Shown here: positions 41,549 to 49,953 of the stretch, piece by piece | Layout of the letters: the number at the start of each line of letters is the position of its first letter | Position numbering within the stretch: position 1 is the stretch's first letter | NCBI RefSeq assembly: GCF_900129615.1 | Contig: NZ_FQWI01000001.1 | Location: forward strand, 248,001-312,000 | Direction of reading: 5' to 3' | Length of the DNA stretch: 64,000 nt | Source: Pectobacterium carotovorum | Lineage (GTDB): Bacteria > Pseudomonadota > Gammaproteobacteria > Enterobacterales > Enterobacteriaceae | Notes under the pieces: generated by a model | The model's input: only the letters and a program-made list of their open reading frames with translations | The model's database searches: none | What the model was told of the DNA's origin: nothing | Position numbers and translations under genes: made by a program

Positions 41549-43090
41549 TTATGTGGATGCCGTCCCGTTACGCGGCGGGCAGCGTTCAATCAACTCGATG
41601 CTGCCATCCGTGTTAGCCTGTTCCAGATAGACGTCAAATCCCCACAGGCGGTGGACGTGCTTCAACACTTCCTGGCTACTTTTATCCAGCGGTGCGCGAT
41701 TATGCGGAACATAGCGCAGCGTCAGCGCCCGATTACCGCGCAAATCCACATTCCAGACCTGAATGTTCGGTTCCAGATGGCTCAGGTTGTACTGCGCGGA
41801 GAGCTCCTGCCGGATCAAACGATAGCCTTCTTCGTCGTGAATCGCGGCAATTTCCAGATAGTTATTGCGGTCGTCGTCCAGCACCGTAAATAGCCGGAAA
41901 TCACGCATCAGCTTCGGCGACAGGAATTGGCTGATGAAACTCTCGTCCTTGAAGTTCTGCATCGCAAAATGCAGCGTATCGAGCCAGTCTTTACCCGCGA
42001 TATCGGGGAACCAGTAGCGGTCTTCGTCGGTCGGTGACTGACAAATACGCTTGATGTCCTGAAACATCGCGAAGCCCAGCGCATACGGATTAATTCCGTT
42101 GTAGTAAGGGCTATTGTACGGCGGCTGATAGATCACATTGGTATGACTATGCAGGAACTCCAGCATGAAGCGTTCAGTGACCCGGCCTTCATCATAGAGA
42201 TGGTTCAGAATGGTGTAGTGCCAGAACGTGGCCCAGCCTTCATTCATCACCTGAGTCTGCTTCTGCGGATAGAAATACTGGCTGACTTTCCGCACGATAC
42301 GCAGAACCTCACGCTGCCAGGGTTCCAGCAGCGGCGCATTTTTCTCCATAAAATAGAGCAGGTTTTCCTGTGGCTCTTGAGGAAAACGTCTGGCTTGTTC
42401 TGGTGCGGCACCCTGTTCGCGCCGCGGTAATGTTTTCCAGAGATCGTTAACCTGGCTTTGCAGGTAGGCCTCACGACTTTTCTGGCGGGACTTTTCCTCT
42501 TCGAGCGAAATCTTCTGCGGACGCTTATAGCGGTCAACGCCGTAATTCATCAGCGCATGGCAGGAATCTAACAGGCGCTCCACCTCGTCCACACCATAAC
42601 GCTCTTCGCATTGCGCGATATACTGCCGGGCAAACAGCAGGTAATCGACGATGGAGCTGGCATCGGTCCAACTGCGGAACAGGTAGTTACCTTTGAAGAA
42701 TGAGTTGTGCCCGTAGCAGGCATGCGCCATCACCAGCGCCTGCATCGGCAGCGTGTTTTCTTCCATCAAATACGCGATACAGGGATCGGAGTTAATGACG
42801 ATTTCGTACGCCAGCCCCTGCTGCCCGTGTTTGTAGCGCTGTTCGGTTTCGATAAATTTCTTCCCGAACGACCAGTGGGCATAGTTGATCGGCATGCCTA
42901 TACTGGAATAGGCATCCATCATTTGTTCTGAAGTGATGACTTCAATCTGATGAGGATAGGTCGCCAGACGATACGACTTGGCCACCCGATCAATCTCATC
43001 AAGGTAAACCTGCAATAACTCAAACGTCCAGTCCGGTCCATCACTCAGGCGAAGTGTTTTTTTTACCTGATTATCCGTCGATATAGCCAT
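41549..43090 (-). CDS. ycgB: YcgB, SpoVR-family protein
   Basis: 513-aa cytoplasmic protein of the SpoVR/YcgB family, starting MAISTDNQVKKTL with GGGGG upstream. Family stretches include YPHQIEVITSEQMMDAYSSI, MAHACYGHNSFFKGNY and MNEGWATFWHY. The family is linked to stationary-phase and nitrogen-stress responses and to the YeaG/YeaH kinase pair, both of which are encoded 9-12 kb away here. Biochemical activity unknown. Confidence 0.93.
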   Translation of the reverse strand: MAISTDNQVKKTLRLSDGPDWTFELLQVYLDEIDRVAKSYRLATYPHQIEVITSEQMMDAYSSIGMPINYAHWSFGKKFIETEQRYKHGQQGLAYEIVINSDPCIAYLMEENTLPMQALVMAHACYGHNSFFKGNYLFRSWTDASSIVDYLLFARQYIAQCEERYGVDEVERLLDSCHALMNYGVDRYKRPQKISLEEEKSRQKSREAYLQSQVNDLWKTLPRREQGAAPEQARRFPQEPQENLLYFMEKNAPLLEPWQREVLRIVRKVSQYFYPQKQTQVMNEGWATFWHYTILNHLYDEGRVTERFMLEFLHSHTNVIYQPPYNSPYYNGINPYALGFAMFQDIKRICQSPTDEDRYWFPDIAGKDWLDTLHFAMQNFKDESFISQFLSPKLMRDFRLFTVLDDDRNNYLEIAAIHDEEGYRLIRQELSAQYNLSHLEPNIQVWNVDLRGNRALTLRYVPHNRAPLDKSSQEVLKHVHRLWGFDVYLEQANTDGSIELIERCPPRNGTAST

Positions 43091-43285
43091 CAGCGCGCCC
43101 CCTAACATAACAAGTCTGTACGTGAGATCTCGTTTACTGCCTTCCCGCTGGCTCCTGTCAAAAAATCATCGTTGTTCATTTAGTTATAGCTGAGCTTTGG
43201 CAACGCGGCAATTGACGAATTGAGCGTGTTTGATGGGAAAAGGTCGCTGAGGTGATAAAAAAGAAACCGGTATTACGCTGTCTAT

Positions 43286-43346: not shown

Positions 43347-44246
43347 CTAGCGGTGTTGATACCGTTTTAACAGCGCCTGAATATCGTTGAGGCGGGAAAC
43401 GGCAATCGTAGACAGCTTCTCTTTAGAAACGTTGCGATCGAGCGAGATGCAATCCTTCCACAGAGAACGACCGGCAATCACGCCAGAGGCACCATTTTTC
43501 AACGCACTTTCTACCTGAGGGAGAAAGGTAGCGTGATCGACACCCGCAGACAGAACGGCCCAGGGAATGTCACCGCACAGTGTGGTGACGCGTGCGCAGG
43601 CTTCATCAGACCCAGGATAAGGAATCTTCAAGACTTTTGCACCTTGCTCGATACAAGCCTGGCAGCCTGCCGGAATAAGTTCGGGCAAGAGGCGGGTATA
43701 GGCTTCGCGAGATTCATTTTCCAGAGGGTAGGTCAGAAACTCAACGACGAGCAGTAAATCTTCCTGCGCAAAGTCCTGAATCACGGTACGGAGTGTGGCA
43801 AGGTTACGGGTATTGGCGTCGGGTATATCCGGGCGAAGGTAGATCATGATTTTTCCGCCAGTGGCACCCCATTCGCGGACTTTACGTGCCGTTACGCCTT
43901 CAACCATCGTGGAGATCCGGTAGCCTTCTGGCGTCGTTTCCCACCCTGACGCATCAAGCCCGATGAGCAGGCCGGTATCGCGGGGCAGAATGTCTTCATC
44001 TATAAGACCCGGTATGGCGCAGATCGGATCAACCAGTACACAGCCCGCCTCAGCCGCCAGATAGCGGGTGATGTCGTATTTTGTATTTCCTAATATTTCA
44101 TTGGTAATCGCGGCCTGTGCTTCTGATGTCGGTGCTAATAATGTTCGCATGCCGCCACGTTGATCGCAGGCAATAACCATCATTGCCCCCGTCGCGTTAC
44201 AAATTAATTGGTATCCCCGGTGCTCAGCGGTTGTCATGGTGTTCAT
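43347..44246 (-). CDS. LacD/YihT-like class I aldolase
   Basis: 299-aa aldolase of the tagatose-1,6-bisphosphate / sulfofructose-phosphate aldolase (LacD, YihT) family. The Schiff-base Lys is probably K207 in AKVLKIPYPG; PWAVLSAGVDHATF and GASGVIAGRSLWKD match the phosphate-binding end of the barrel, and MVIACDQRGGMRTLL matches the N-terminal motif. Start ATG 44246 has GAGGG 8 bp upstream. Last gene of the seven-gene PTS operon; it would cleave a ketose (bis)phosphate to two trioses. The substrate is inferred, not known. Confidence 0.8.
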   Translation of the reverse strand: MNTMTTAEHRGYQLICNATGAMMVIACDQRGGMRTLLAPTSEAQAAITNEILGNTKYDITRYLAAEAGCVLVDPICAIPGLIDEDILPRDTGLLIGLDASGWETTPEGYRISTMVEGVTARKVREWGATGGKIMIYLRPDIPDANTRNLATLRTVIQDFAQEDLLLVVEFLTYPLENESREAYTRLLPELIPAGCQACIEQGAKVLKIPYPGSDEACARVTTLCGDIPWAVLSAGVDHATFLPQVESALKNGASGVIAGRSLWKDCISLDRNVSKEKLSTIAVSRLNDIQALLKRYQHR

Positions 44247-44282
44247 GATAATTACCCTCATAAAAGTAATGTAAATAAGCGA

Positions 44283-44816
44283 TTAATCCAGGTGTGTTTT
44301 TATCCATTGAATTAATTCCTGATAATTAATTTCCTTATCCTGATCAACCGTGTAACATTTCCCCATACCCATCGGCTGTGCCTGATGCGCGAGTGAAATT
44401 AATTCCGGCAGATACTCACTGCCGGGATGGCCTTTTATCCTTTCATTAATTCTGGTCTGATACCGCTCAGCTACCCGGTCAGGTGAAATGGCATTCCATA
44501 TTTCAAGCGTATGCTGGATATCACACGAAATCAGATAGTCCTGTAATAGCGATTTTTCGCGAAAACCGAACCAGGCATCAAGAATGAAAATACTATTTTC
44601 AGGAGCCTGTCTAACGATATTAAACATGGCCTGATAGGCGGCGACCCCCAGTTTTCTGTTTAACGTTCTGTCAATCGTGTCGCAGAACTGCATCATGAAC
44701 GGCTCTTTTATTTCATCGAGGCTTAACCGTGGGAGACTCAATTCATCCGCAATGATACGTGCTACCGTGCTTTTCCCTGATGCAGGGATACCATTTACTA
44801 AAATAAGTTTTTTCAT
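44283..44816 (-). CDS. P-loop kinase-like protein in the PTS operon
   Basis: 177 aa with Walker A GIPASGKST (~res 9-17), an Asp-containing FILDAWFGF strand and a likely lid (RVAERYQTRINERIKGHPGSEY). The shape is that of small-molecule kinases (AAA_33/zeta-like P-loop group). It overlaps the IIA gene by 4 bp (ATGA), so it is part of the operon. Its substrate is unknown: it may phosphorylate a sugar or intermediate, or have a regulatory role. Confidence 0.7.
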   Translation of the reverse strand: MKKLILVNGIPASGKSTVARIIADELSLPRLSLDEIKEPFMMQFCDTIDRTLNRKLGVAAYQAMFNIVRQAPENSIFILDAWFGFREKSLLQDYLISCDIQHTLEIWNAISPDRVAERYQTRINERIKGHPGSEYLPELISLAHQAQPMGMGKCYTVDQDKEINYQELIQWIKTHLD

Positions 44817-45250
44817 AATACCCCGACAATATCATCTGACGTAGTAGCGCATCGAATACGAGAGAGCATGTCGTCCTTTTCTAATAGATTGACGATTGAG
44901 GCGATACCTTCCGTAATATGCGCATCACTGTTAACCCCACCAAACATAATTAAGATATCCACCGGTTCACTTCCATTAATAGAGAGCGGCGTCTGTAACG
45001 TCAGTAAACTAAAACAATTCTCTCGAACGCCACATTCAGGGCGCGCATGGGGAATAGCGATGCCTTCATCAAATACATAATAAGGGCCGTATTCCTTCGT
45101 GTTTTCTATCACCGCGATGGGATACGCCTTCGTAATACATCCCGCGCTGATTAATGGTTGAGCGGCACAATAAATAGCGTCTTCCCATGTCTTACATATC
45201 ACGCCGAGTTGAATGCAATTGTGCTGCAAAAGGAAATTTTTTATGCTCAT
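44813..45250 (-). CDS. Ula-type PTS IIA
   Basis: 145-aa cytoplasmic IIA of the mannitol/fructose fold, closest in pattern to ascorbate UlaC. The phosphorylated His is probably H68 in GIAIPHARPECGV; GPYYVFDEG precedes it and DILIMFGGVNSDAH follows, as in UlaC (GPYFVL...PHGRPEEGV). GAGG TTTT precedes the ATG. Donates phosphate to the IIB of the same operon. Confidence 0.85.
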   Translation of the reverse strand: MSIKNFLLQHNCIQLGVICKTWEDAIYCAAQPLISAGCITKAYPIAVIENTKEYGPYYVFDEGIAIPHARPECGVRENCFSLLTLQTPLSINGSEPVDILIMFGGVNSDAHITEGIASIVNLLEKDDMLSRIRCATTSDDIVGVL

Positions 45251-45256
45251 AAAACC

Positions 45257-45535
45257 TCATATATTTTTCCGAATGGTGTTTCTGAGTTCATCTATCTGAA
45301 TAAAAATACGATCAACGCGCTCCCGATAGTCAGGATGAGAAGAAAATAGTTGAATGGCCTGATTGTATTTAATCATTAGCCTTTTTTGCGTTTCACTATG
45401 ACCCGGATCTTGTGCTAACCGAGATTCAAGCTCCGCTAATTCTTCCTCAATTTCCCTGACGCGATTGTCATCCTTATTATCGCGATTGTCGGAAGAGGGA
45501 CCAGGGGATAAAAAGCGTTTGAGTAGAGAAAACAT
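45257..45535 (-). CDS. Small coiled-coil protein inside the PTS operon
   Basis: 92 aa: MFSLLKRFLSPGPSSDNRD, then a charged linker and a strong coiled-coil stretch (VREIEEELAELESRLAQD, later RVDRIFIQIDELRNTIRK). No membrane helix. AAGGAG TCACT before the ATG is a strong ribosome site. It lies between IIC and IIA, an unusual place for a non-PTS protein. No family recognised; an adaptor or regulator is possible. Confidence 0.7.
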   Translation of the reverse strand: MFSLLKRFLSPGPSSDNRDNKDDNRVREIEEELAELESRLAQDPGHSETQKRLMIKYNQAIQLFSSHPDYRERVDRIFIQIDELRNTIRKNI

Positions 45536-45579
45536 AGTGACTCCTTAAGCTATTTGCATAATGACGACAGGCCAGCACG

Positions 45580-46917
45580 CTATTGCGATAGTTTACGGTT
45601 CGCAATAAAAGCAATGAATGCAACGAACGCGACAAAGGCGGCGACAAATAACCAATCTTGCTGGAAGGCGTGTCCTAAGATCAGACCAGTACTGATGACA
45701 TCGGAATCGCTGAAGGTGACGCCAGTAAAGCCGAAAACTTCCAGTAATGGCACCAGAATGGCGGGCAATAGCGTAATGAAAAGGCCATGAACGACACCGC
45801 CGATGACAGCACCACGTCGTCCTCCCAGCGCGTTACCGAAAATACCGGCTGTTCCGCCCGCAAAGAAGTTGGTCAATAAACCCGGCAAAATCATTGCCAG
45901 CCCAAACATCGGGAAGATCAGCATCCCCAGAATGGAACCGACGGTGGTCGCGAGGAACCCGACAATCACGGCGTTCGGCGCATAAGGGAAGAGCACCGGG
46001 CAATCCAATGCAGGTTTGGCGTTAGGCACCAGACGCATGGCGATACCTCGAAAGGCGGGAACCAGCTCATTAAGCAGCAGGCGTACACCGCTGTAGAGAA
46101 CGAAAACGCCTGCGACAAACTGCATGGACTGCATGAAGGAATACATCAGATAATTGACGCCGTTGGCGTACTGCGCGATGTAGGCCGGTCCTGCCGCCAC
46201 GGCGGGGATGAGATACATCGGCACCATGACGACGGCCATCGACAGGTAGGTATCCTGCAAGAATTTGAAGTTATCAGGCAGCGTTAAATCTTCCGTGGAT
46301 TTGGAGTTTTTACCGACGACCCGAGCGACGGCGGCCTGCACCAGATACCCGATGGTACAAAAATGTCCCAGCGCAACATCATCGGAATTCGTGATTTTAC
46401 GTACAATTGGCTGCGCCAGCGCTGGCATCAGTACCGCCATAATGCCGCCAAATATGCCTCCGGTTAGGATCAGAGTCGCACCGGTCAAACCTGATTTATA
46501 GCCGATCACGGTACCGATTGTTGCCATCCACAGCAGAGCCTGTCCCGTCAGGAAGATATATTTAAAGGGGGTGATTCGCGCGATAAGGATGTTAACGGCA
46601 AAGATCACCATGAGCGTCAACGCGACTTCTGATCCGAGCTCGCGGTTTGCCAACCCGGCGATGGCGGCGACATCAGTGATGTAGCCTTTCATGCCAAAGC
46701 CTTGGGTAAAGATGCTGTTCAAATACGTCAGGGTATCAACGATGATGTTAATCCCCGCCATCATGATGAGGAAACCCAGCAGTGTCTTGAATGTCCCCTC
46801 GGCAGTTTTTCCTACCGATTTCTTCTGTAAAATCAACCCGATCATGGCGATCAGCGCGATTAATATGGATGCCTGGCCTAATAAATCTTTCACAATGAAA
46901 TTGATAACGGTGTTCAT
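45580..46917 (-). CDS. Ula/SgaT-type PTS IIC permease
   Basis: 445-aa permease with about ten or more membrane segments. It resembles ascorbate UlaA rather than galactitol GatC: LGFLIMMAGINIIVDTL near the N-terminus, VLYSGVRLLLNELVPAFRGI, the FPYAPNAVIVGFLATTVGSI motif and GTAGIFGNALGGRRGA. It would carry the sugar acid or related substrate and pass it to IIB. Substrate unknown; ascorbate itself is possible but the neighbouring enzymes are not UlaDEF. Confidence 0.85.
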   Translation of the reverse strand: MNTVINFIVKDLLGQASILIALIAMIGLILQKKSVGKTAEGTFKTLLGFLIMMAGINIIVDTLTYLNSIFTQGFGMKGYITDVAAIAGLANRELGSEVALTLMVIFAVNILIARITPFKYIFLTGQALLWMATIGTVIGYKSGLTGATLILTGGIFGGIMAVLMPALAQPIVRKITNSDDVALGHFCTIGYLVQAAVARVVGKNSKSTEDLTLPDNFKFLQDTYLSMAVVMVPMYLIPAVAAGPAYIAQYANGVNYLMYSFMQSMQFVAGVFVLYSGVRLLLNELVPAFRGIAMRLVPNAKPALDCPVLFPYAPNAVIVGFLATTVGSILGMLIFPMFGLAMILPGLLTNFFAGGTAGIFGNALGGRRGAVIGGVVHGLFITLLPAILVPLLEVFGFTGVTFSDSDVISTGLILGHAFQQDWLFVAAFVAFVAFIAFIANRKLSQ

Positions 46918-46930
46918 TTTTCACCTCATG

Positions 46931-47224
46931 CTATTGATGAGCCTGGATATACGCTAAAATTTTTTCTTCTATTTCATCTTTGTCGGTCAATTTATTAAGA
47001 ATGATGATTCTTTTTTTCTCATCTTCACTGGCATCGCTATTCAGAATGTCAGCAAATATTTTCTGGGTTAGAATGACGTCATAATTGAAGGCAGAAGCTT
47101 CTGAAATCGTGGTGTGATTTATTTCTGCATCAATCCCTAGTTTTTTTAGTACGGATTTCGCACTCATTTCGATAGCGAAACTGGAACCTAATCCACAGCC
47201 GCAAACGCAAAGTACTTTCAACAT
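46931..47224 (-). CDS. Ula-type PTS IIB
   Basis: 97-aa IIB with the phospho-cysteine motif VCGCGLGSS (C8), like UlaB (VCGNGQGSS). I chose ATG 47224 (MLKVLCVC) because GAGG lies 8 bp upstream; an ATG two codons earlier is too close to that site, and longer forms run into the PFK gene. It lies between the PFK and IIC genes. Confidence 0.85.
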   Translation of the reverse strand: MLKVLCVCGCGLGSSFAIEMSAKSVLKKLGIDAEINHTTISEASAFNYDVILTQKIFADILNSDASEDEKKRIIILNKLTDKDEIEEKILAYIQAHQ

Positions 47225-47234
47225 AATCATGGCC

Positions 47235-48215
47235 TCATATAAGGTGATGAGATTTCGCGAGCTTATAAAAGTGACTGTCGACATCAACCAAACGTCGTTC
47301 GGAATCCTCCAGGTCGATAGGAATAGCTTTGTTGTTATTATTGATAATGATGATTTTATTGGTGAGTCCGGTATTAATGCACCGAACCACTTCTTCTGCT
47401 AACAGGGTGCCCTGAATAATTTCTTCCCCGGTGGGCGCGCCATTTCGTAAACCATATCCCAAAATAGTTTTTCGGATACGGATGCCAATCTTATGCTCTA
47501 GTTTCTTGATAATGGTGTCGATAGCGCCCTGAAAGCCAGGAGTATATTCATGGGTATAACCTTCAGAGCATAAAATGATTACACTGTTTTGTTCCGCGAT
47601 TTTCTCCCGAATACGTTGCGATAATTGATCAATATCCCACGGTGATTCTGGAATGAGTGCGATATCTGCGTTGCTCTTTAATGCCGCCTGCAAGGTTAAT
47701 TCGCCACAATAACCGCCGAGTAATTCAATCATGAATACCCGTCCTTGTAGTCCACGGCCTGTATTTCGCAATTTCTCTACTTCACTCATTACCTGCTCGC
47801 AGGCGGTAGAAAAACCGATCGTATAGCTGTTCCCTGAAATATCATTATCAATCGTCATGCCTACGCCATAGCAATGAATACCATAGTGACTGAGTTTTTT
47901 TAGAAATTGGAATGAACCATCTCCTCCCGCCATAATGAGTGCGTCGAGTTTTTGTTTTTGAATGTTTTTGACGATGTGCTCATAGTCTGTTTTTCTACAT
48001 TTTCCGGTTTTTCTCCCTGAAGTGATCAAGGGCATTGCTGAGAGAGAATAATCTACCAAATCGCGGCGAGTGAGCACTTTACAGCAGTTATCGATAAGGC
48101 CATTAATTCCACCATCGAAAATGACGATGTCGGAGGCAGTCATTCTATTCACCTGAAAGATGAAGTTATTTATTCCGCTAACGTCGCCGCCGCTAATGAC
48201 TAATCCAATTTTCAT
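47235..48215 (-). CDS. Divergent 6-phosphofructokinase-family kinase
   Basis: 326-aa PFK-A-fold protein, first gene of the PTS operon. Shared with E. coli PfkA: GGDGS (97-101; the Gly suggests ATP, not PPi), TIDND (121-125, catalytic Asp), R159, YCGELTL and R248. Different: the MGR loop is LGG (166-168), so the Met and Arg that contact the sugar phosphate are missing, and His249 of PfkA is Tyr254. The start GGDVSGINN also departs from GGDAPGMNA. It probably acts on a different sugar phosphate. ATG 48215 has GAGGG upstream. Confidence 0.8.
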   Translation of the reverse strand: MKIGLVISGGDVSGINNFIFQVNRMTASDIVIFDGGINGLIDNCCKVLTRRDLVDYSLSAMPLITSGRKTGKCRKTDYEHIVKNIQKQKLDALIMAGGDGSFQFLKKLSHYGIHCYGVGMTIDNDISGNSYTIGFSTACEQVMSEVEKLRNTGRGLQGRVFMIELLGGYCGELTLQAALKSNADIALIPESPWDIDQLSQRIREKIAEQNSVIILCSEGYTHEYTPGFQGAIDTIIKKLEHKIGIRIRKTILGYGLRNGAPTGEEIIQGTLLAEEVVRCINTGLTNKIIIINNNNKAIPIDLEDSERRLVDVDSHFYKLAKSHHLI

Positions 48216-48353: not shown

Positions 48354-48375
48354 TATTGTGATTATTATCACGATT
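48354..48375. promoter_or_regulatory. CRP site upstream of the PTS operon
   Basis: TGTGA-TTATTA-TCACG matches 9 of 10 CRP core bases (core 48357-48372). It lies about 140 bp upstream of the PFK gene, in the 484-bp gap to dadA. Confidence 0.75.
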
Positions 48376-48413: not shown

Positions 48414-48699
48414 GGATTTAACATTTTCATCTTTTTTATTCTTCTTTAGCTTCCCAGCTAAAAAGCGAATACGCATTTTGTGAATGATTTCACAGTTATT
48501 TCGTTACGATCTCAGTGGAGAATCAACGGTTCGAAGAGATAACAATAGATAAATGTTATCGTCGAGGCGGGTGACAATTCCTTCCCAAATGCTAGAGTAG
48601 TCTTCAGTTTTACCTTTTAACTAGTGTTTTATTCCATTAAATAAGCATTTTTCCAGTAGATTAGACGGTCTTTAACGGAGAGAAAGGGAGAGCGGTAGC

Positions 48700-49953
48700 A
48701 TGCGGGTTGTGATTCTGGGAAGTGGCGTCGTTGGCGTAAGTACCGCCTGGTATCTTGCGCAGGCAGGGCATGATGTTACCGTTATTGACAGGCAACCGGA
48801 GCCCGCGTTGGAAACCAGCGCCGGAAATGCCGGACAAATTTCTCCTGGCTATGCCGCACCTTGGGCTGCGCCGGGAATACCGCTGAAAGCGATAAAGTGG
48901 ATGTTTCAGCGCCATGCACCGCTGGCCATCCGGCCGGACTTTACGGCTGCACAGCTTTGCTGGATGTGGCAAATGTTGATCAACTGCGATGCGCGCCACT
49001 ATAAAACCAATAAAGCGCGGATGGTGCGTCTAGCGGAATACAGCCGCGACTGTTTGCAAGCGCTGCGGCAGGATACCGGTATCCAGTACGAAGGTCGGCA
49101 AGGCGGAACGCTGCAACTGTTCCGCACTGAGCAGCAGTATGAAAACGCGACACGGGATATCGCTGTGCTGGAAGAGGCTGGCGTACCGTATCAACTGCTG
49201 ACTCGTCATGAGCTAGCCTCGGTTGAACCTGCGCTGGCGAACGTGGCGGATAAACTGACTGGCGGGCTACGTTTACCGCATGACGAGACAGGCGACTGCC
49301 AGCTGTTTACTCGCCAACTGGCGGCGATGTCCGCCGAGGCCGGCGTCACCTTTAAACTGGGGCGTAACGTTCGTCAGCTGCGGGTTGAAGGGCAGAGTGT
49401 CACGGGCGTGCAGTGCGACGACGAAATCATCGTGGCAGATGCCTATGTGATGGCCTGCGGCTCTTATTCAACGGGACTCCTGCGTCAGTGGTTCGATATT
49501 CCGGTTTATCCGCTGAAGGGCTATTCACTGACGATCCCGCTAGCTGATGACGCCTCGGCACCGGTTTCTACCGTACTGGATGAAACCTATAAAATAGCGA
49601 TTACCCGTTTTGATCGTCGTATCCGCGTTGGTGGAATGGCAGAGGTCGTGGGCTTCAACACTGAACTGAATCCCAAGCGCCGTGAAACGCTGGAAATGGT
49701 GGTGCGCGATCTCTATCCTCATTGCGGCCCGATTGAGCAAGCAACATTCTGGACGGGGCTGCGTCCGATGACGCCGGACGGCACGCCGCTGGTAGGGCGC
49801 TCACCGCTGAAAAATCTGTATCTGAATACGGGACACGGCACGTTGGGCTGGACGATGGCCTGTGGATCGGGGAAGCTACTGGCGGATATTCTGTCGGACA
49901 AATCACCGGAGATTGAGTCCGATGATTTGTCCGTGGAAAGGTATGTTCGTTAG
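48700..49953 (+). CDS. dadA: DadA, D-amino acid dehydrogenase small subunit
   Basis: 417-aa FAD-dependent dehydrogenase that oxidises D-alanine and other D-amino acids at the inner membrane. N-terminal [18 protein letters not shown] dinucleotide motif, [19 protein letters not shown] and C-terminal [14 protein letters not shown] and [16 protein letters not shown] are intact. Unlike in E. coli, no dadX racemase follows; an exporter gene converges from the other side 22 bp away. Confidence 0.95.

Follow-up and report, generated by a model that had tools for sequence, protein, structure and literature searches.

Organization of a seven-gene PTS operon

The window analysed here is a stretch of 64,000 nucleotides from Pectobacterium carotovorum, in which seven contiguous genes occupy positions 43347..48215, all on the minus strand. 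In transcription order, they encode a PfkA-type PFK-like kinase (326 aa; 47235..48215; Pfam PF00365, 3e-62), a PTS IIB protein (97 aa; 46931..47224; PF02302, 7.2e-12) with the phospho-Cys motif CGCGLGSS from residue 8, a PTS IIC permease of the Ula (ascorbate) family (445 aa; 45580..46917; PF03611, 3.3e-121), a small protein (92 aa; 45257..45535) with a weak DUF4404 match below the cut-off (0.006), a PTS IIA protein (145 aa; 44813..45250; PF00359, 1.3e-26) with His68 in PHARP, an AAA_33 P-loop small-molecule kinase (177 aa; 44283..44816), and a class I DeoC/LacD-family aldolase (299 aa; 43347..44246; PF01791, 1.2e-14) with Lys207 as the proposed Schiff-base residue. The start codon of IIB is ATG 47224; for the aldolase, ATG 44246 (299 aa) was favoured over 44261 (304 aa) on the basis of an upstream GAGGG and the alignment of relatives. 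An earlier note had described seven same-strand genes separated by -4 to 44 bp; their place, the families named by Pfam and NCBIfam profile matches, and the computed gaps (10, 13, 44, 6, -4 and 36 bp) all agree with that description. The small protein had been described as "coiled-coil" in the first reading.

The identical gene order was met again in other genera, all seven families occurred together in 15 further loci besides the window, and a close aldolase match was present in 16 of 24 sampled congeners. The gene set is therefore beyond chance. The seven-gene arrangement is real, and the genes presumably form an operon. As a guide to the insertion site, the eight congeners without a close aldolase match were compared: ycgB lay within 1.5 kb of dadA in five and not in the other three, in two of which the ORFs flanking dadA were inspected. 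A megablast-mode search of 5,426 E. coli genomes gave no match to the 4,004 bases 43347-47350, a query without most of PFK. G+C content was considered as a sign of transfer and proved weak, the value of IIC (0.518) being as high as that of the aldolase (0.532).

IIC scored 824 bits against NCBIfam PRK12997.1-3 (cut-off, 657) and matched the UlaA structure 4rp8 (E 1.3e-42). Together with PF03611 and the separate IIB and IIA matches, this places the transporter in the ascorbate (Ula/L-Asc) PTS family, as had been claimed, and the reported lack of UlaD-, UlaE- and UlaF-type enzymes was likewise confirmed by a profile search of the seven operon proteins.

Leader region and putative CRP control

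A perfect CRP-type site (TGTGA-N6-TCACA) lies at 48479..48494 (unstranded), 264-279 bp ahead of the PFK start, and a second CRP-like site with one mismatch lies at 48357..48372 (unstranded), 142-157 bp ahead of it. The perfect site was found in all 16 leaders of the window-type gene order (layout A; 15 loci and the window), against a mean of 0.005 of 16 in mononucleotide shuffles, and the second site, with one mismatch or less, in 14 of the 16. In loci with a class II aldolase (layout B), just 9 of 23 leaders carried a perfect site. On the best reading of these leaders, the operon is putatively CRP-controlled. The palindrome TTGTGTTCACA, 35-42 bp ahead of the PFK start, was rejected as an operator because no more than five of the 16 layout A leaders carry it, namely those of the window, L086, L087, L090 and L091. 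Scans for sigma-70-type and terminator-like sequences gave no excess over shuffles. No linked regulator naming an inducer was found in layout A, which counts against the explanation preferred below.

Distribution of the P-loop kinase and gene layouts

The P-loop kinase was found in 51 of 295 sampled genomes of the family (33 of 154 genera). In 48 of these 51 genomes the match locus was examined, three being left out, and an aldolase adjoined the P-loop kinase in every one (48/48), accompanied by PTS genes in 47; locus L063 is cut by a contig end that hides IIA, IIB, IIC and any PFK. The 48 loci comprised 14 of layout A (window type, class I aldolase), 21 of layout B, in which a class II aldolase gene is sited between IIC and the small-protein gene, and 13 of layout C, mostly without PFK. 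To call the layouts, genes were labelled by BLAST comparison with references from the window, Klebsiella, Sodalis and Rhizobium at bit-score cut-offs of our choosing, the class II aldolase serving as marker of layout B and SorC as marker of layout C. The small-protein gene was present in 15/15 layout A and 23/23 layout B loci; a TPR protein of Enterococcus gilvus considered as its relative showed no clear relation (BLASTP E 0.041). In layout C, IIC keeps 69-73% identity, and IIA and IIB drop to 31-45%.

PFK accompanied the P-loop kinase in all 38 layout A and B loci, although it is split in two in L017 and L065. It was present in a single locus among the 13 of layout C (one of the 13 ends at a contig edge), in none of 7 layout D loci (alphaproteobacterial; see below) and in none of the best 80 of 235 binding-protein loci. 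The survey shows the P-loop kinase as the constant partner of the aldolase and PFK as the variable kinase. The earlier note had cast PFK as the key kinase: a kinase acting on a sugar phosphate is supported, whereas PFK varies and the P-loop kinase is constant (48/48). Because both kinases occur together in 38/38 layout A and B loci, simple redundancy is no explanation, and this counts against our preferred explanation.

Fold matches of the P-loop kinase were 2rhm (a putative kinase), adenylate kinases, gluconokinases, APS kinase and 6-phosphofructo-2-kinase, so varied a set that the fold leaves the substrate unnamed. A P-loop protein of Enterococcus gilvus was rejected as close kin, since the relation is no more than distant (hhalign probability 87.6, E 3.5e-6).

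PFK-like kinase and aldolase

When aligned with PfkA, the PFK retained GGDGS and TIDND, with the substitutions H249->Y and R171->G. Of four residues that contact the 6-phosphate in E. coli PfkA, three are kept in the window PFK. The alignment was restricted to pieces of at least 280 aa (14 of 15 layout A, 22 of 23 layout B and one layout C), and the rows read were the window, L013, L085, L092, L067 and housekeeping PfkA. We propose that PFK is a ketose-omega-phosphate 1-kinase. The previous suggestion that PFK and the aldolase work on a sugar phosphate is supported.

The aldolase belongs to the DeoC/LacD superfamily (PF01791, 54.9 bits; cut-off, 23.8). It fell under the cut-off of PRK12858 (150.5 against 184 bits) and far under that of the LacD tagatose-bisphosphate aldolase equivalog TIGR01232 (48.8 against 432.2 bits). 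It could be aligned with YihT (1to3/7ag7) and LacD entries, and its lysine aligned with the YihT lysine that is presumably the Schiff-base residue. The best curated matches of the layout B class II aldolase were generic ketose- or fructose-bisphosphate aldolases and not GatY/KbaY, which ruled it out as a GatY-type marker and was counted against our preferred explanation. Two unrelated aldolase classes in otherwise similar operons point to a ketose bisphosphate yielding DHAP.

Layout A aldolases formed a single clade inside the alphaproteobacterial aldolases (supports 99/91 and 100/95), and a second aldolase tree grouped them with A. vitis (100/98). In the kinase tree, the P-loop kinases of layouts A and B fell outside the C+D group (100/99). 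The trees sampled layout D, with 30 rows for the first aldolase tree, 24 for that with A. vitis and 17 for the kinase tree. The placement of the aldolase with alphaproteobacteria and of the kinase outside C+D suggests an aldolase swap, which should preserve the substrate; the swapped aldolase would be a natural experiment in which the substrate is read from gene replacement.

Alphaproteobacterial relatives with an ABC transporter

In alphaproteobacteria (layout D), the same aldolase (64-74% identical, 7 loci) was encoded with SorC, a ROK::P-loop fusion and a ribose-type ABC transporter. Across the layouts, the P-loop kinase is thus the constant companion of aldolases from two unrelated classes and of both PTS and ABC transport, which makes it a candidate for a new ketose-phosphate kinase. 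The aldolase and the fusion were both present in 70 of 80 binding-protein loci (best 80 of 235 relatives). The binding protein of A. vitis (L175) was 98-99% identical to PDB 5DKV, Avis_5339 (Avi_5339); a low-confidence structure model of the binding protein (pLDDT 65.1) was used only as a route to PDB titles, and a literature search for the code 5DKV gave no match. Among the same best 80 of 235, with one member per cluster tested, tagatose-kinase-like genes occurred in 16 loci and GatZ-like genes in 15; both stood together with the aldolase and the ROK::P-loop fusion in 11. Three loci (L151, L152 and L170) held a GatZ-like gene with neither aldolase nor fusion; this favours tagatose as the sugar that the 5DKV-type transporter carries.

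In PMC5507952 (2017), mannoheptulose binding by Avi_5339 is quoted as an unpublished observation, and an ABC-type locus of Rhodobacteriaceae bin08 is proposed to degrade mannoheptulose by a hypothetical pathway in which the heptulose is cleaved to DHAP and erythrose-4-phosphate. Against R. tumorigenes L015, whose genes are not those of bin08, the window aldolase was 72% and the P-loop kinase 40% identical.

Proposed pathway and alternatives

What the sequence establishes is the gene content with its families, the motifs for phosphorylation and catalysis, the conserved linkage, the replacement of the aldolase class and the CRP-type sites. From sequence comparison, we consider it probable (about 0.55) that the PTS operon serves uptake and breakdown of a ketose via a ketose 1,omega-bisphosphate, the sugar being mannoheptulose or tagatose. 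The substrate, the order of phosphorylation, the division of labour between the kinases and the role of the small protein are what we infer. IIA, IIB and IIC would import a ketose of tagatose-like stereochemistry, which would arrive phosphorylated at its far end (C7 or C6). C1 would be phosphorylated by the P-loop kinase, with PFK as helper or duplicate, and cleavage of the C3-C4 bond of the 1,omega-bisphosphate by the aldolase would give DHAP with erythrose-4-phosphate (heptulose) or with glyceraldehyde-3-phosphate (tagatose). The window holds no ABC transporter, and the substrate is carried over through homology of the aldolase and P-loop kinase. Both this and the unpublished status of the mannoheptulose binding, quoted in a single paper, count against the explanation.

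As substrate, D-mannoheptulose is tentatively put slightly ahead of D-tagatose. A narrower version, which we regard as possible and somewhat doubtful, is a PTS dedicated to a plant seven-carbon sugar (mannoheptulose or a near relative) degraded to DHAP and erythrose-4-phosphate, in which the P-loop kinase would be a ketose-7-phosphate 1-kinase and PFK would handle a six-carbon relative. If the sugar is a heptulose, the operon would link plant seven-carbon sugars with plant-associated enterobacteria and rhizobia. A testable substrate is now given for a hitherto unassigned PTS travelling with this P-loop kinase. The chemistry of the first reading is broadly right: a second phosphorylation followed by aldol cleavage fits the layout B class II aldolase and the pathway in PMC5507952. 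Neither the formation of two trioses nor the identity of the sugar is proven, the cleavage given in that paper yielding erythrose-4-phosphate beside DHAP.

The same pathway dedicated to D-tagatose is a serious contender, if a tentative one; PFK or the P-loop kinase would convert tagatose-6-phosphate, formed by the PTS, into tagatose-1,6-bisphosphate, which would be cleaved to DHAP and glyceraldehyde-3-phosphate. The aldolase resembles tagatose-bisphosphate aldolases, the ligand of 5DKV is probably tagatose, and tagatose-kinase-like and GatZ-like genes adjoin the 5DKV-type transporter. However, in the 11 of 80 loci with all four genes a second tagatose route would be redundant. E. coli PfkA is said in PMC10101011 to turn tagatose-6-phosphate into tagatose-1,6-bisphosphate. 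The mannoheptulose binding reported in PMC5507952 counts against tagatose.

An unlikely alternative is that the aldolase cleaves a ketose 1-phosphate and the P-loop kinase takes the free aldehyde product, with PFK as a parallel bisphosphate branch. This would account for a P-loop kinase beside the aldolase even where PFK is missing, but with PFK present an aldehyde kinase would be superfluous, yet both kinases occur in every layout A and B locus; moreover, C6 is the position that Ula-family EII are known to phosphorylate and at which ROK kinases mostly act. Very improbable is transport of a sugar acid, ascorbate-like or other, by the EII, with the enzymes acting on its product: all three EII components match models of the ascorbate PTS, but none of the seven proteins matches UlaD/E/F, IIC departs from UlaA at several aligned positions that we take to be ascorbate contacts, and the core enzymes accompany a ribose-type ABC transporter in alphaproteobacteria.

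Comparison with known systems

The Ula ascorbate system has the EII family in common with the operon and differs in its catabolic enzymes UlaD, UlaE and UlaF, none of which was matched among the seven proteins. The lactose/galactose tagatose-6-phosphate route uses LacC, a PfkB-type kinase, and LacD; a LacD-like class I aldolase acting on a ketose 1,6-bisphosphate is likewise proposed here, whereas the operon kinase is of the PF00365 (PfkA) type, and no lac-type EII or isomerase was matched among its seven proteins. The tagatose PTS of Klebsiella oxytoca and Bacillus licheniformis has a fru-type EII and a PfkB-type kinase acting on tagatose-1-phosphate, and is not known to include a P-loop kinase. 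PTS uptake, a kinase and a bisphosphate aldolase are common to this system, which is named in PMC10101011, and to the operon. YihT of sulfoglycolysis belongs to the same aldolase family, with the lysine and an AGR..W motif aligning, whereas no isomerase or reductase was found among the seven proteins; the window aldolase was 25% identical to those of L088 and L089, presumed yih clusters judged by gene lengths only.

The earlier statement that no pathway with this set had been described holds for the PTS version, which a literature search did not find in print, but not for the aldolase and P-loop kinase core, for which PMC5507952 gives a hypothetical pathway. No experimental study of these genes came to light either. 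As described there, the bin08 route relies on an ABC transporter and a ROK kinase, in place of which the window operon has a Ula-family PTS, PFK and the small protein. The two share a COG3684 tagatose-bisphosphate-type aldolase encoded together with a P-loop kinase (there COG0529), and two successive phosphorylations followed by cleavage are hypothesized for both.

Organization of the operon

The seven same-strand genes of named families described in the earlier note were confirmed by coordinates and Pfam matches, and the NCBIfam assignments of their products were consistent with the Pfam families. All seven lie on the minus strand of the window, between dadA (48700-49953, plus strand) and a ycgB/SpoVR-like gene (41549-43108, minus strand), with fadR beyond; these three neighbours are presumptively named, from their sequences. 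In transcription order, the operon encodes PFK (48215-47235; PF00365), IIB (47224-46931; PF02302; motif CGCGLGSS), IIC (46917-45580; PF03611), a small protein (45535-45257) with a weak DUF4404 match that an earlier sequence-only reading had taken as a coiled coil, IIA (45250-44813; PF00359; motif PHARP), a P-loop kinase (44816-44283; PF13671) and an aldolase (44246-43347; PF01791), a lysine of which aligns with a YihT lysine. The intergenic gaps were 10, 13, 44, 6, -4 and 36 bp, in agreement with the range of -4 to 44 bp reported before. The genome also contained five pectate-lyase-family matches, which suggest a soft-rot bacterium of plants, possibly Pectobacterium. Two congeners without the operon carry other DNA beside dadA (L197:2752-4251 and L194:1-1500, coordinates within the fetched loci), with ORFs in L197 that by eye look integrase-like and primase-like; this site is read as a variable spot.

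A conserved kinase-aldolase core

The aldolase had a close match in 16 of the 24 congeners sampled. Of 295 genomes sampled within the family, 51 had the P-loop kinase, representing 33 of 154 genera. A phylum-wide set of 398 genomes gave 11 with the kinase; some of these were also in the family set, and three lay outside the order. Among the 48 of 51 family kinase loci that were read, 14 had gene layout A (the window's type), 21 layout B and 13 layout C. In the plasmid collection, kinase matches of at least 39% identity occurred in 26 records, 25 of which also carried the aldolase at 60-80% identity; the 26th, from Klebsiella, had a class II aldolase instead. The part that stays constant is therefore the kinase paired with an aldolase, and PFK and transport are variable.

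Layout totals were counted from the family-hit loci together with other loci fetched. Layout A (15 loci besides the window) has the order PFK-IIB-IIC-small protein-IIA-kinase-class I aldolase, followed by a HAD phosphatase in nine of the 15. One layout A operon is preceded on the same strand by genes for a xylose/ChvE-like ABC transporter and for an SDR (L056:1644-5590), which possibly feed it. Layout B (23 loci) has a class II aldolase gene after IIC and before the small-protein gene; a class I aldolase was not found in any of these 23 loci. Layout C (13 loci, one ending at a contig edge) runs class I aldolase-kinase-IIA-IIB-IIC, from which a SorC regulator gene diverges. The only PFK-like gene found in this layout (1 of 13; L067:10988-11983) reads GGGGS for GGDGS, so that the protein may be altered or inactive. 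Layout D (seven alphaproteobacterial loci) combines SorC, a class I aldolase and a ROK::P-loop kinase fusion, with a ribose-type ABC transporter near six of the seven.

In Agrobacterium rubi (L014:8221-15493), the genes flanking SorC and aldolase encode PdxJ-like, SDR and CofD/YvcK-like proteins together with a HAD phosphatase that shares 46% identity with the layout A one; the pathway there may be extended or different. In Klebsiella CP125156.1 (5.37 Mb, labelled plasmid), PFK is split across two reading frames (L017:7653-8704), either by decay or by sequencing error. In a Gram-positive form on Enterococcus gilvus plasmid pCR1A (L190:6520-12228), a PTS regulator gene is followed in order by genes for IIB, IIC (at 63% identity), a TPR protein, a class II aldolase and a distantly related P-loop protein; no PFK was seen in this form.

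Predicted regulation

A perfect CRP-type site was present upstream of PFK in all 16 layout A leaders (mean in mononucleotide shuffles, 0.005 of 16), and 14 of the 16 had a second site, mismatched at no more than one position, that was closer to PFK by 122-136 bp. Because only four of the 15 layout A loci outside the window share its dadA-like neighbour, the predicted sites go with the operon. They support a catabolic operon under glucose control. Perfect sites were also present in 9 of 23 layout B leaders, and three layout B loci had a DeoR-type gene just upstream (family tested for one).

A proposed exchange of the aldolase

Layouts A and B keep the same gene order except for the class of aldolase, and the class II gene of layout B occupies the position of the window's 44-bp IIC-to-small-protein gap. 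Two midpoint-rooted aldolase trees were built, the first with two far outgroup rows and the second with fewer rows (support as paired values). Layout A aldolases formed one clade among layout D rows (100/100 and 100/99, respectively), grouping in the first tree with A. rubi L014, L181 and L184 (99/91) and with R. tumorigenes L015 (100/95), and in the second with nine rows, A. vitis L175 among them (100/98). Layout C aldolases were a separate clade in the second tree (100/98), next to L018, L142 and L162 of Rhizobium (97/93), and were not one group in the first, which had more rows. Layout D aldolases came out as a single clade in 0% of the 200 bootstrap trees of either run. In the kinase tree, C joined D (100/99), A and B fell outside, and B was not one clade. 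These patterns are most simply explained if a PTS operon of enterobacteria that carried a class II aldolase gained its class I enzyme from a layout D system of rhizobia. An exchange of this kind would be expected only where the two enzymes share one ketose bisphosphate as substrate.

Candidate substrates

The earlier note proposed PTS uptake, 1-phosphorylation and cleavage to trioses; this chemistry is likely right in outline, and the choice of substrate is an educated guess. In R. tumorigenes, the layout D binding protein matched PDB entry 5DKV, the A. vitis binding protein Avis_5339, at 546 bits (next entry, 132). The A. vitis CG78 binding protein is 98-99% identical to 5DKV, and its gene adjoins SorC, aldolase and the fusion. 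The 5DKV ligand is reportedly tagatose. The transporter itself may carry tagatose, because in three binding-protein loci (L151, L152 and L170) it is accompanied by a GatZ-like gene, with neither aldolase nor fusion found there.

Among the best 80 of 235 relatives of the layout D binding protein, 70 loci had aldolase plus fusion, 16 had PfkB-type cluster genes (tested member: best match TagKinase, 265 bits, under the cut-off of 420) and 15 had GatZ/AgaZ-type cluster genes (tested member: 584, above the cut-off of 568.8). Both of the latter types occurred in 12 of the 80, 11 of which also had aldolase plus fusion. If the TagKinase-like and GatZ-like genes serve tagatose, then the fusion and aldolase may serve the heptulose; loci L151, L152 and L170 speak against this. 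In Rhizobium setariae (L123:2030-16165), ROK::P-loop and aldolase genes are followed by GatZ-like and PfkB-like genes, and an RPE-like epimerase gene is close by (family tested on the cluster member from L168), an arrangement that we read as a putative rare-ketose island.

Mannoheptulose is only slightly ahead of tagatose as the candidate substrate. New here are the constancy of the P-loop kinase with interchangeable aldolases and transporters, the conservation of the predicted CRP-type sites, and the tie to a published hypothetical ABC-type mannoheptulose pathway, whose authors state, from unpublished data, that Avi_5339 binds mannoheptulose (PMC5507952).
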